In this document: one piece after another, positions 28,219-59,873 of the stretch
Numbering within the stretch: the stretch's first letter is position 1
Layout of the letters: each line of letters starts with the position of its first letter
Assembly (NCBI RefSeq): GCF_004369205.1
Contig: NZ_QFGA01000002.1
Coordinates: 186,001 to 250,000 of the forward strand
Direction of reading: 5' to 3'
Length of the DNA: 64,000 nt
Source of the DNA: Pelotomaculum schinkii
Lineage (GTDB): Bacteria; Bacillota; Desulfotomaculia; Desulfotomaculales; Pelotomaculaceae
Made by a program: the position numbers and the translations under genes
Notes under the pieces: generated by a model
Database searches by the model: none
Seen by the model: only the letters and a program-made list of their open reading frames with translations
Told to the model about the DNA's origin: nothing

Positions 28219-29328
28219 ATGAGGATTTCCACAAAATTCATAGAAACAGGGATGAGGCTGACCCGCCCGATATACGGCCGTAACGGAGAGACACTCTTAA
28301 ACAGAGGAACAACCCTGACAACACAATATATCATGTCTCTGCGGCGTCACGGGATATTAACGGTTAATATAGATAGCGGGTTCGAGGAGGATTTTAGTGA
28401 TGCGCTGGAAGACATAGTGCGTTGCAGTGTCATGAAAAAGGTGCAGCATGAGATAATGGTGAACAGAAACCGGATTAGTATTAAGAACATCACGAATCAA
28501 GTGGAAATGCTGATTGATGAAATTATCAGTGGTAAAAAAATCATTGGAAATCTTACAGAAATTTGCTCTGCAGATATGTATACATACGCTCACTCAGTTG
28601 ACGTATGTACACTTTCTTTAATGTTAGGCATCAGGTTGAACTACAAAAAGGATAAACTCCTCCAGTTGGGGACAGGGTGTTTGCTGCATGACCTGGGAAA
28701 AACCAAAGTATTACCGGAAATACTGAATAAACCGGGGGTATTAGACTCTGCAGAATTCAGTGAGATAAAAAAGCATCCTTTATACGGGTACAAAATGCTT
28801 TTAGACAACAATGAAGATATTGACCCCGAAAGCGCCAACATAGTCTTGGACCATCATGAGAAATATGACGGCTCAGGTTATCCACGCGGTCTTAAGGGAC
28901 AGGAAATCGCTGAAATGTCTGTTATCTGCGCAGTTGCAGATGTTTATAACGCCATCACTACTGACCGTATATACAGGAGAGCCATGCCGCCGCACGAGGT
29001 CTACGAAATGATCATGGCTTCCGGCAACATGATGTTTGAGCAAAGGGTAGTGGAAGCTTTTCTGAAATGCATTGTGCCATACAACATTGGTTCAATAGTA
29101 AGGTTGAGTAATGGCTTTGTTGGTAGAGTCTGCAGGTTAAATCCAAGCTTACCGCTCAGGCCAATTATTAGGTTATTAGATTCAAGGGAAGAAATTAATC
29201 TGGTGCAAGAAAAAAGCATTGTTATTAACGGCCTATTACAACATGAAGACATTATTAAAGAGGAAATTGACAGGGCCTTAGAGAAAGTGGGAAGTTTTAA
29301 ATTCAGGCAGGATTTTACAGCAATCTAG
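28219..29328 (+). CDS. HD-GYP domain phosphodiesterase
   Basis: 369 residues: an N-terminal domain (1-110, GMRLTRPIYGRNGETLLNRG, common in stand-alone HD-GYP proteins) and an HD-GYP domain (about 115-300) with LLHDLGKTKVL, LDHHEKYDGSGYPRG and ADVYNAITTDRIYR, the full metal-binding set expected of cyclic-di-GMP phosphodiesterases. The C-terminal 60 residues form a small extra domain (GSIVRLSNGFVGRV). It lies divergent from the STAS gene. Its last codons contain the repeat motif AGGCAGGATTTTACAG found upstream of the comM copies. Confidence 0.92.
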   Translation: MRISTKFIETGMRLTRPIYGRNGETLLNRGTTLTTQYIMSLRRHGILTVNIDSGFEEDFSDALEDIVRCSVMKKVQHEIMVNRNRISIKNITNQVEMLIDEIISGKKIIGNLTEICSADMYTYAHSVDVCTLSLMLGIRLNYKKDKLLQLGTGCLLHDLGKTKVLPEILNKPGVLDSAEFSEIKKHPLYGYKMLLDNNEDIDPESANIVLDHHEKYDGSGYPRGLKGQEIAEMSVICAVADVYNAITTDRIYRRAMPPHEVYEMIMASGNMMFEQRVVEAFLKCIVPYNIGSIVRLSNGFVGRVCRLNPSLPLRPIIRLLDSREEINLVQEKSIVINGLLQHEDIIKEEIDRALEKVGSFKFRQDFTAI

Positions 29329-29461
29329 GTGATCGAGAAAATCACTTGTTTCCAAATTCCATCTCGATTTCTTTCACCACACAATATTTGTAACAATGTT
29401 ACAGAAGGATTTTTATTGGCAGTATATACTAATGTAAAATAAAAACAGGAAGGGTGGTAAA

Positions 29462-29767
29462 ATGTCTGTCATTAACTGCCATAACAACTATGAAGTAGCA
29501 AATTCAGGCATACAGGTACTAAGTGATTCAAAAATGATCAAGGTCGAAATTTCTAAAGACGCCAGGGGCTATATTTTTAACAGAGATGGAGCCATTACTG
29601 TGGAACTACGAACGGGTTTTGGCTGAGCTGGTTGCATCAATGAGCCTGTCGTGTTTACAGGCAAGCCACGTGTTCCTGAAAATTATAATGAAGTTATTGC
29701 CCACGGTATTAAGGTTTACTGCTTAACCTTGGGGATGGCAGAAAACAAGTCGCCAACAGAGCCATAA
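29462..29767 (+). CDS. HesB-like (CC/Se-motif) selenoprotein, Sec55 encoded by UGA
   Basis: An AGGAAGGGTGG site precedes ATG 29462. The frame reads KVEISKDARGYIFNRDGAIT, VELRTGFG, then TGA at 29624-29626, then AGCINEPVVFTGKPRVPENY and NEVIAHGIKVYC to TAA 29765. Both halves match one small HesB-like family, members of which carry either Cys or selenocysteine at this position. There is no frameshift, and the part after the TGA is as well conserved as the part before. A hairpin fitting a bacterial SECIS element begins 17 bases after the TGA. Length with Sec is 101 residues, normal for the family. The function is unknown; a single nonsense mutation is the alternative. Confidence 0.7.
29644..29662 (+). 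promoter_or_regulatory. Candidate bacterial SECIS hairpin
   Basis: GCCTGT (29644-29649) pairs with ACAGGC (29657-29662) around the loop CGTGTTT. The loop starts 23 bases after the UGA and has a G in its second position; both agree with the known bacterial SECIS consensus (apical loop 16-37 bases after UGA, G among the first two loop bases). The hairpin lies inside the coding frame. Confidence 0.6.
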
Positions 29768-29806
29768 CATGTTTCCGTTAAAGTTAATTTCGAGGAGAAA
29801 TAAAGA

Positions 29807-30556
29807 TTGATTACAATTAAAACAGCGCAACAAATTGCACGGATGGCTGAAGCTGGTAAAATATTAGCTGCCTGCCACCGGGAACTCCGCGAGATCATTC
29901 GTCCGGGTATAACAACTTTGCAAATCGATCACTTCGCAGAGCACTTCATTCAATCCCACGGGGCCAAAGCCGAACAAAAGGGTTACCAGGGCTATCCTTT
30001 TGCAACGTGTGCTTCAGTCAATGATGAAATCTGCCACGGATTCCCGACTCAAACCCCTCTCCGGGAAGGCGATATCGTCACCATTGATATGGTTGTCAAT
30101 CTCAATGGATGGCTAGCTGATTCCGCTTGGTCTTACCCGGTGGGTCAAATATCTGAACAAGCTGAACAACTCCTCAAAGTGACTAAAGAGTGCCTTTACA
30201 TCGGTATTAACAAAGCTGTTCTCGGCAATCGACTTGGTGATATTTCACATGCGATTCAAATTCATGCTGAATCCCATGGGTTTTCCGTAGTGCGTGATTT
30301 TACTGGACATGGTATAGGTCATAACATGCATGAAGCTCCGCAAGTTCTCCACTATGGTCACCCCAACAAGGGTGTTAGGCTCTTTGAAGGGATGGTTTTT
30401 ACCATCGAACCGATGATCAATATGGGTTCCTACGACCTGACAATTGACCAGAACGAATGGACTGCCAGGACGGCGGACGGCAGCCTGTCGGCTCAGTATG
30501 AGCATACCATTGCTATCACCAAGAACGGTCCGCTGGTTTTAACTGAACAGGACTGA
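29807..30556 (+). CDS. map: Methionine aminopeptidase, type I
   Basis: 249 residues from TTG 29807, with CGAGGAGAAAT upstream. It removes the initiator methionine from nascent proteins. All metal ligands are present: TIDMVVNLNGWLADSAWSY (two Asp), FTGHGIGHNMHEAP (His), MVFTIEPMINMG (Glu) and QYEHTIAITKNG (Glu). It lies 40 bases downstream of the selenoprotein gene on the same strand. Its isolated position away from ribosomal protein genes suggests a second, accessory copy. Confidence 0.93.
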   Translation: MITIKTAQQIARMAEAGKILAACHRELREIIRPGITTLQIDHFAEHFIQSHGAKAEQKGYQGYPFATCASVNDEICHGFPTQTPLREGDIVTIDMVVNLNGWLADSAWSYPVGQISEQAEQLLKVTKECLYIGINKAVLGNRLGDISHAIQIHAESHGFSVVRDFTGHGIGHNMHEAPQVLHYGHPNKGVRLFEGMVFTIEPMINMGSYDLTIDQNEWTARTADGSLSAQYEHTIAITKNGPLVLTEQD

Positions 30557-30825
30557 TACAGGTTTGCTAAATGGGAAAGGACGTGTTAATCCGTGGACTA
30601 ATACCCTTTCTCACCCGAACGGGTTGCGTTTGCAAACAATGCTGCACATAATTACGTGTTGCCGCAGTAGCACATACAGACAAGGTAGTATTTTCCTTTG
30701 CTACCATTATATATCCATTATATACAGCAATTTCTGGTCAGGTAATCACGTCAGCTTTTGGACTTTTTAGCTTGGTTGCAACACCTCTCAGCCTTTGAAC
30801 GGGTACCTTGGAAAGGGTAACCAGA
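30557..30825. other. Gene-free stretch after map
   Basis: No coding frame with recognisable content. It leads into the upstream repeat of the comM fragment. Confidence 0.35.
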
Positions 30826-31150
30826 CTGACGCTCCAGTAAAGTAAAAACGAAGATTTTAAGTTATAGCGGCACCTCTCATTAAAGAAAAACGCTGCCTTT
30901 ATAAATGTTGTCCGCTAACATTGTAAACAGCTTCTCAAATACCACCACAGAAGAAACCTCCCCACCTTTTCAAATTCAGGCAGGATTTTACAGCAACCTG
31001 GTAGAAATATGTCTAAGTTATTTTTCTTTCGCGGAGGCAAGTATGATTGCCATTGTGAAAAGCACCGCTTTGAGCGGTCTGGATGGTCAAATCGTGGAGG
31101 TTGAGGTAGATGTGTCAAGCGGTTTGCCCAGCTTCGAAATCGTCGGCCTA
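30826..31150 (+). repeat. Copy A of an approximately 320-bp comM-upstream duplication
   Basis: The segment starting ACGAAGATTTTAAGTTATAG and running into the first 35 codons of comM recurs at 59110-59420 in the same orientation with scattered substitutions and small gaps. Identity is highest over the coding part. It includes AGGCAGGATTTTACAG, which occurs a third time at the 3' end of the HD-GYP gene (about 29304). Confidence 0.8.
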
Positions 31151-35988: not shown

Positions 35989-36330
35989 AAAAACCCGGAT
36001 TTTGAAAATGTCAAGGGCCAGCAGACAGCCAAGAGGTGTCTGGAAGTGGCCGCGGCAGGCGGTGATAATGTGGTTATGCTCGGCAGTCCCGGTTCCGGTA
36101 AAACTATGCTTGCCCGCAGCCTGCCCGGCATACTGCCGGATCTGACTTTTCAGGAGTCCTTAGACGTAACCAAGATTCACAGCCTGGCCGGGCTGCTCCC
36201 GGCGGGCCGGCCGTTGTTGACCAAACGCCCTTTTCGCTCCCCGCATCATTCTGCATCCACTGTAAGCATCATCGGCGGCGGAAGGATCCCCAAGCCTGGT
36301 GAAGTCTCGCTAGCCCATCACGGGGTACCT
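35989..36330 (+). pseudogene. comM internal fragment (AAA+ core)
   Basis: A stop precedes the frame at 35986. It reads KPDFENVKGQQTAKRCLEVA, GSPGSGKTMLARSLPGILPD (Walker A), LTKRPFRSPHHSASTVSIIG and GEVSLAHHGV, then ends at an unrelated junction. These are residues of ComM that normally follow directly after the N-terminal ChlI domain, which is found separately at 59313-59873. Both pieces are on the plus strand but in swapped order. Confidence 0.85.
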
Positions 36331-59109: not shown

Positions 59110-59420
59110 GTTAAGTGAAAACGAAGATTTTAAGTTATAGCAGCACCTCTTTTTTAAGAAATACGCCAGCTTATAAACGTTCTCCGCTAGCATTAAAAGG
59201 ACTTCTAAAATACCACCGCAGAAGAAATCGCCCTCTCTTTTCAATTCCAGGCAGGATTTTACAGTAAAATCGTAGAAAGATGTCTAAATTATTTTTCTTT
59301 CCGGAGGCAGGCATGATAGCCATAGTGAAAAGCACCGCTTTGAGCGGTCTGGATGGTCAAATCGTGGAGGTTGAGGTGGATGTGTCAAGAGGTTTACCCA
59401 GCTTCGACATAGTTGGGCTG
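59110..59420 (+). repeat. Copy B of the comM-upstream duplication
   Basis: Matches 30830-31150 in the same orientation, from ACGAAGATTTTAAGTTATAG through the comM ribosome site (GGAGGCAG) into its first 35 codons. Here the coding part continues. Confidence 0.8.
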
Positions 59421-59873
59421 CCGGACGCCTCGGTGCGTGAAGCCAAGGACCGCGTCCGCACCGCCATCAAAAACTCCGGGCTTGAATTTCCGGTCAAGAG
59501 GATTACAGTCAACCTGGCTCCCGCCGATCTAAAAAAAGAGGGGCCGGTTTACGATCTCCCTATCGCAGTAGGGATCCTGGCTGCCACTGAGCAGCTGCCT
59601 CCTGAGCGCTTCCAGCAGTATGTTTATCTCGGGGAACTGTCCCTTAATGGCTCACTGCGCGGCGTGGCGGGAGTTCTCCCCAACGTGCTGGCGGTAAGGG
59701 ATGCAGCTTTGCAGCAGGTGGTTGTCCCTATGGAAAATGCGAAGGAAGCGGCACTGGTGGAAGGGATTGATGTTTTTCCGGCCTCCTGCCTTGATGAACT
59801 GGCCGCTTTTCTGCGCGGTGAAAACGAAATAGCCCCTTACAGGTTGGACCTTACAGAATTGCAGGACAACTGA
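59313..59873 (+). pseudogene. comM 5' fragment, ChlI domain only (copy B)
   Basis: 186 residues from ATG 59313 (GGAGGCAG upstream). Complete N-terminal ChlI domain of ComM/YifB: MIAIVKSTALSGLDGQIVEV, SFDIVGLPDASVREAKDRVR, KRITVNLAPADLKKEGPVYD LPIAVG-type sequence and [21 protein letters not shown]. It stops where the AAA+ domain should start; that domain's first half lies at 35989. The end abuts an oppositely oriented nadA fragment. A truncated stable product is possible. Confidence 0.85.

Follow-up and report, generated by a model that had tools for sequence, protein, structure and literature searches.

A CC/Se motif selenoprotein gene of Pelotomaculum schinkii, probably truncated by recombination with a map leader

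The window analyzed here is a stretch of 64,000 nucleotides of Pelotomaculum schinkii DNA. It contains a selenoprotein gene of the CC/Se motif family (NF041239), and the in-frame UGA of this gene is strongly supported as a selenocysteine (Sec) codon. Codons 1–86 appear to have been joined by recombination to the leader of a duplicated map gene, and the result is best read as a young pseudogene. We put the probability of this whole explanation at about 0.8. A gene overlooked by standard gene callers is now placed in a real selenoprotein family.

A sequence-only reading had proposed a HesB-like selenoprotein of 101 codons with UGA at codon 55. The frame was found as proposed, with ATG at 29462, UGA at 29624–29626, and TAA at 29765–29767. 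Codons 1–86 contained no frameshift and no further stop. Ordinary gene callers do miss it, and it is a real gene of a known family of small selenocysteine proteins. Its features up to the hairpin are as follows.

29387–29461, + strand: 5′ region, with a ribosome-binding site (AGGAAGGGTGG) at 29447–29457 that is conserved with the closest relative
29462–29719, + strand: CC/Se motif (NF041239) selenoprotein gene, codons 1–86, with family homology from about codon 25
29624–29626, + strand: UGA selenocysteine codon (codon 55) in the motif U-A-G-C; the column is UGA or Cys in relatives
29644–29662, + strand: bacterial SECIS hairpin with a 6-bp stem and the 7-nt loop CGUGUUU, identified by conservation among UGA members and by folding

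Positions 29387–29468 were 86% identical to G098:C117 over 84 columns, and the 5′ region contains the palindrome TGTAACA-A-TGTTACA. The window frame was 67% identical to L028, its closest full-length relative, and the homology ran up to KVY. An Rfam scan of 29300–29900 returned chance matches only.

The genome (8 contigs, 4.44 Mb) was searched for the Sec machinery, as had been suggested, and all components were present. tRNA-Sec scored 68.9 bits, above the cut-off. SelB was found with SelA adjoining it, and SelD was also found. The selD gene (G000:C1:1112651–1113571) itself has one in-frame TGA, so SelD of this genome is probably a selenoprotein too.

A scan of a genome-contig collection with a single protein as query gave no match, and one with an alignment of eight relatives succeeded. 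Six NF041239 copies were present in the genome, with UGA (three), Cys (two) or Tyr (one) at the Sec column. In the class-wide search, 45 of 113 genomes carried the family, which is common in Desulfotomaculia. Alignment with Cys-containing homologues had been proposed as a check. Among the 69 members aligned across the class, the column of codon 55 was UGA in 41, Cys in 25, Tyr in 2, and Trp in 1. The Cys partner of Sec varied among the 41 Sec members: 14 had it at −3 (CxxU), 12 at +3 (UxxC), and 9 at +2. Cys stood at both +2 and +3 in one of the 41 and at none of these three positions in seven. A convergent pair of family genes (L052, G000:C2:729986–730864), conserved in G097:C155 (L056), consists of a UGA member and a possible non-catalytic partner, whose Sec column holds Tyr. 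A Cys member in G097 (L057, G097:C170:1350–1739) is broken by an assembly run of N.

The hairpin, GCCUGU-CGUGUUU-ACAGGC, had the geometry claimed by the sequence-only reading, with 23 bases between UGA and loop and G at loop position 2. It was checked against the published bSECIS model (PMC13188914), which asks for a loop of 3–9 nt, a stem of 4–16 bp, G in the first two loop bases, a distance of 16–37 nt from UGA, and a minimum free energy (MFE) of at most −7.5 kcal/mol. The 7-nt loop, six pairs, loop G2 and 23-nt distance all fell within these ranges. Folding 53 nt gave an MFE of −12.1 kcal/mol and folding 26 nt gave −8.6; the 19-nt hairpin by itself gave only −7.1. The folding energy of the isolated SECIS region was ordinary (z = 0.23) and was not counted as evidence; the hairpin was therefore judged by conservation and not by stability. 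Its motif, GCCTGYCGTGTNTRCAGGC, occurred exactly once in the 64 kb, and with up to three mismatches it had two matches against 0.04 expected.

Of the 33 UGA members that share this spacing, 29 had the full six pairs and none had fewer than five. G stood within the first two loop positions in 32 of them. The top pair (23–31) was C-G in 22, U-A in 10 and U-G in 1, and so was paired in every member. None of 10,000 shuffles reached 33/33, a number that is not a probability since the shuffle ignores relatedness. Only 2 of the 24 Cys, Tyr or Trp members had all six pairs. This contrast between Sec and Cys members backs the shuffle result, and together they support a real SECIS element with compensatory change. 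At the protein level, the covariation of pair 23–31 mostly couples Ala...Ala or Val...Thr. The SECIS base pairs couple amino-acid changes in Sec members, which makes a clean comparative case for a Sec codon.

At the sequence level, three lines of evidence strongly support the reading of codon 55 as a selenocysteine codon: the Sec machinery of the genome, Cys or UGA in the aligned position of homologues, and a SECIS element conserved with compensatory change. The sequence-only reading had cautioned that a nonsense mutation must be excluded. If the UGA were simply a nonsense mutation in a Cys protein, the gene would be an ordinary pseudogene, in agreement with the broken comM fragments nearby and with the broken C-terminal end described below. 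This reading was rejected on the conservation of UGA and SECIS across species and has a negligible probability: UGA, never UAA or UAG, stands at one column in dozens of species, a covarying SECIS accompanies it and is missing in Cys members, and the genome has the Sec machinery. The caution keeps its force for a gene broken in another way, since the 3′ end is lost.

With UGA read as Sec, NF041239 was the sole NCBIfam match of the window protein, scoring 63.4 bits (cut-off 40). The match spanned model positions 1–64 of 91 only, and the last 25 or so model positions were missing. As judged from sequence, the window copy is a member of the family by descent, but a truncated one that falls short of the full-length domain. 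A Pfam scan of the window protein gave nothing of note and no PF01521 match, and PF01521 had no match across the genome either. TIGR01911 matched neither the window protein in the NCBIfam scan (E ≤ 1) nor anything in the genome-wide search. A literature search on the name of the motif turned up no paper, and the family was located through its NF041239 number. A 2026 review (PMC13188914) already catalogs NF041239 as a predicted selenoprotein family, from Moorella thermoacetica, and lists the HesB-like TIGR01911 (UxGP) as a separate entry. The window copy resembles the Moorella-type family in its profile match above the cut-off, its Sec/Cys column and its small single domain. It differs in motif, which is CxxU in the Moorella-type family according to PMC13188914 and UxxC (U-A-G-C) in the clade of the window copy, and the final third of the family domain is missing from it. 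The gene is ordinary as a selenoprotein and useful as a clear example of SECIS/Cys exchange in NF041239.

The fold of L028 was modeled with AlphaFold from 26 sequences (mean pLDDT 86.7). The best Foldseek match of the model was E. coli SufA (2d2a, E = 6e-4). VIA-align placed it on IscA (1r94) with Z = 9.2 and an rmsd of 3.0 Å over 85 residues, and the top-ranked structural matches were A-type/HesB-fold proteins. A search of the PDB with the family sequence profile found no relative. The tie of the CC/Se family to IscA/SufA/HesB is therefore one of predicted fold only and depends on the model. The term HesB-like therefore holds as a predicted fold relation and fails as a sequence family, which is NF041239 and neither PF01521 nor TIGR01911. 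IscA and SufA, the A-type Fe–S carriers, share this fold at 11–14% identity, and the CC/Se family is without their C-terminal Cys pair.

True HesB selenoproteins exist in the same order. A PF01521 (HesB/IscA) protein was found in only 8 of its 110 genomes (L143–L150); all eight genes have an in-frame TGA, and all appear to encode HesB-like selenoproteins. Aligned with these eight by hhalign, the CC/Se profile put U on U at E = 0.0063, a weak match with a probability of just 5.9%. The two groups share the predicted IscA/SufA fold, but the CC/Se family has no HesB Pfam or NCBIfam match and lacks both the UxGP motif and a C-terminal Cys cluster. It is conceivable, though doubtful, that the CC/Se family is an unrecognized branch of the A-type (IscA/HesB) fold expanded in Desulfotomaculia. 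An A-type-like role as a metal or selenium/sulfur carrier could then exist in genomes without any PF01521 protein, such as this one with its six CC/Se copies, through a single Sec/Cys whose partner Cys switches among −3, +2 and +3. The fold link gives a testable biochemical direction for an uncharacterized family.

The features at the 3′ end are as follows.

29718–29720, no strand: recombination junction, ambiguous by 1 bp; selenoprotein homology ends and map-locus homology starts at 29719
29720–29767, + strand: non-homologous tail (codons 87–101 and TAA) that stems from the non-coding leader of map
29807–30556, + strand: map, a duplicated type I methionine aminopeptidase gene, intact, 249 aa, TTG start (PF00557, 170 bits)

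Family sequence had been claimed on both sides of the UGA. This was correct for codons of about 25–86 but not for the last 15 (87–101), because 29719 is where DNA similarity to all relatives stops, and 29719–29806 is the duplicated map leader. Relatives read on as ...GIKVYIFKGAV.AP.GIKISL...L.VEGL, and the window copy reads instead ...GIKVYCLTLGMAENKSPTEP; its tail is CLTLGMAENKSPTEP. In G098:C117, the selenoprotein end is intact. The segment 29719–30619 was 96% identical to a copy in the same genome on contig C3 (at about 89.3 kb) and to G097:C79; both carry map. The bases before the leader in C3 and G097 are shared with each other and are not selenoprotein sequence. The junction is thereby supported by two independent comparisons. 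Read in the same frame, the C3 leader also contains the tail, which is not conserved in G097.

About 33 C-terminal residues were lost, corresponding to two predicted strands (91–98 and 101–107 of intact L028). The model of the window copy had a mean pLDDT of 66.9 against 86.7 for L028, and the window alignment was shallower. Degraded downstream halves in relatives had been named as evidence against a selenoprotein. Such damage was found in part in the window copy itself, where the junction at 29719 removed the C-terminal third. An intact UGA/SECIS frame can occur in a truncated copy, and automatic selenoprotein finders should therefore compare the C-terminal end with the family.

The junction might be an assembly chimera hiding a full-length gene, since the genome holds a second copy of the map segment at 96% identity, and assemblies can jump at such sites. 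We consider this very unlikely. The map copy in the window is real and separate from that of C3, because dS between them is 0.09 and it lacks 10 derived bases that C3 and G097 share. The assembly has only 8 contigs, with the window inside one of 1.1 Mb, and the missing C-terminal piece was found nowhere beyond the five known paralogues.

The age of the recombination junction was estimated from the leader and map. Over the 88-base leader (29719–29806), the window and C3 were identical at 87 of 88 positions, one base apart, whereas C3 and G097 differed by nine bases and one gap over the first 90 leader columns. In the map coding region, the 10 derived bases of C3 and G097 are missing from both the window copy and G098, and dS was 0.091 for window–C3 and 0.049 for C3–G097. 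This pattern points to a split of the map coding copies that is older than the leader exchange. A near-identical leader despite this older split suggests a recent leader exchange, and hence a truncation that is probably recent. After a recent truncation, an intact upstream frame is expected whether the copy works or not. The open frame and the SECIS element therefore probably reflect selection before the truncation and not present function. The dN/dS of the window copy against L028 was 0.63, based on few changes in 61 conserved codons and too noisy to separate function from decay. The window branch had 4 synonymous and 7 nonsynonymous changes, resembling the L028 branch (2 and 7), and relaxation was not demonstrated. 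We infer that the UGA is still decoded in the window copy, and that any product it makes is a shortened selenopeptide, probably non-functional, of a young pseudogene.

A functional, C-terminally shortened selenoprotein, in which the 86 family residues and the 15-residue tail fold, work and are under selection, is less likely. In its favor are the open frame, the ribosome-binding site, the conservation of the upstream region, and a SECIS element that is intact. However, two strands of the fold are gone, and their replacement is a non-coding leader elsewhere that is unconserved as protein in G097. The junction is also probably recent, and other full-length copies are kept in the genome, among them those at C1:419 kb and C2:730 kb. 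Highly improbable is a role of the truncated frame as a selenium-responsive leader, with read-through or termination at UGA altering the translation or mRNA level of the downstream map. The frame is on the same strand and stops 39 bases before the map start, the selenoprotein 5′ region now lies upstream of map, and this map copy is intact with a dN/dS of 0.24 against C3. The arrangement occurs in one genome only, though, and map retains its own leader.

In intact members, SelB on the hairpin about 23 nt downstream would bring Sec-tRNA(Sec), and the ribosome would read UGA as selenocysteine. In most members this would give a U-x-x-C or C-x-x-U pair at the HesB Sec/Cys position, and the intact protein may serve in redox or in metal or selenium–sulfur ligand chemistry. 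In the window copy, recombination would have joined codon 86 to the duplicated map leader and replaced the two C-terminal strands by 15 read-through codons.

One further feature lies in the neighborhood.

29295–29330, + strand: 3′ end of the upstream HD-domain gene, with a second copy at 30967–31002 (from self-comparison and synteny with L110)

This 36-base direct repeat (92%) flanks a 1.6-kb segment that is missing there in G097. In G097, an intact comM comes immediately after the HD-domain gene, and in the window 29331–30966 intervenes; the segment looks like an insertion or a recombination scar. The sequence-only reading had mentioned pseudogenes nearby, and comM (Mg-chelatase-like) is in pieces in the window. 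The pieces lie at 30967–31150, 35998–36326 and 59238–59864 and match the unbroken G097 comM at about 86–87% identity. Other genes fill the roughly 4.8 kb between the first two.
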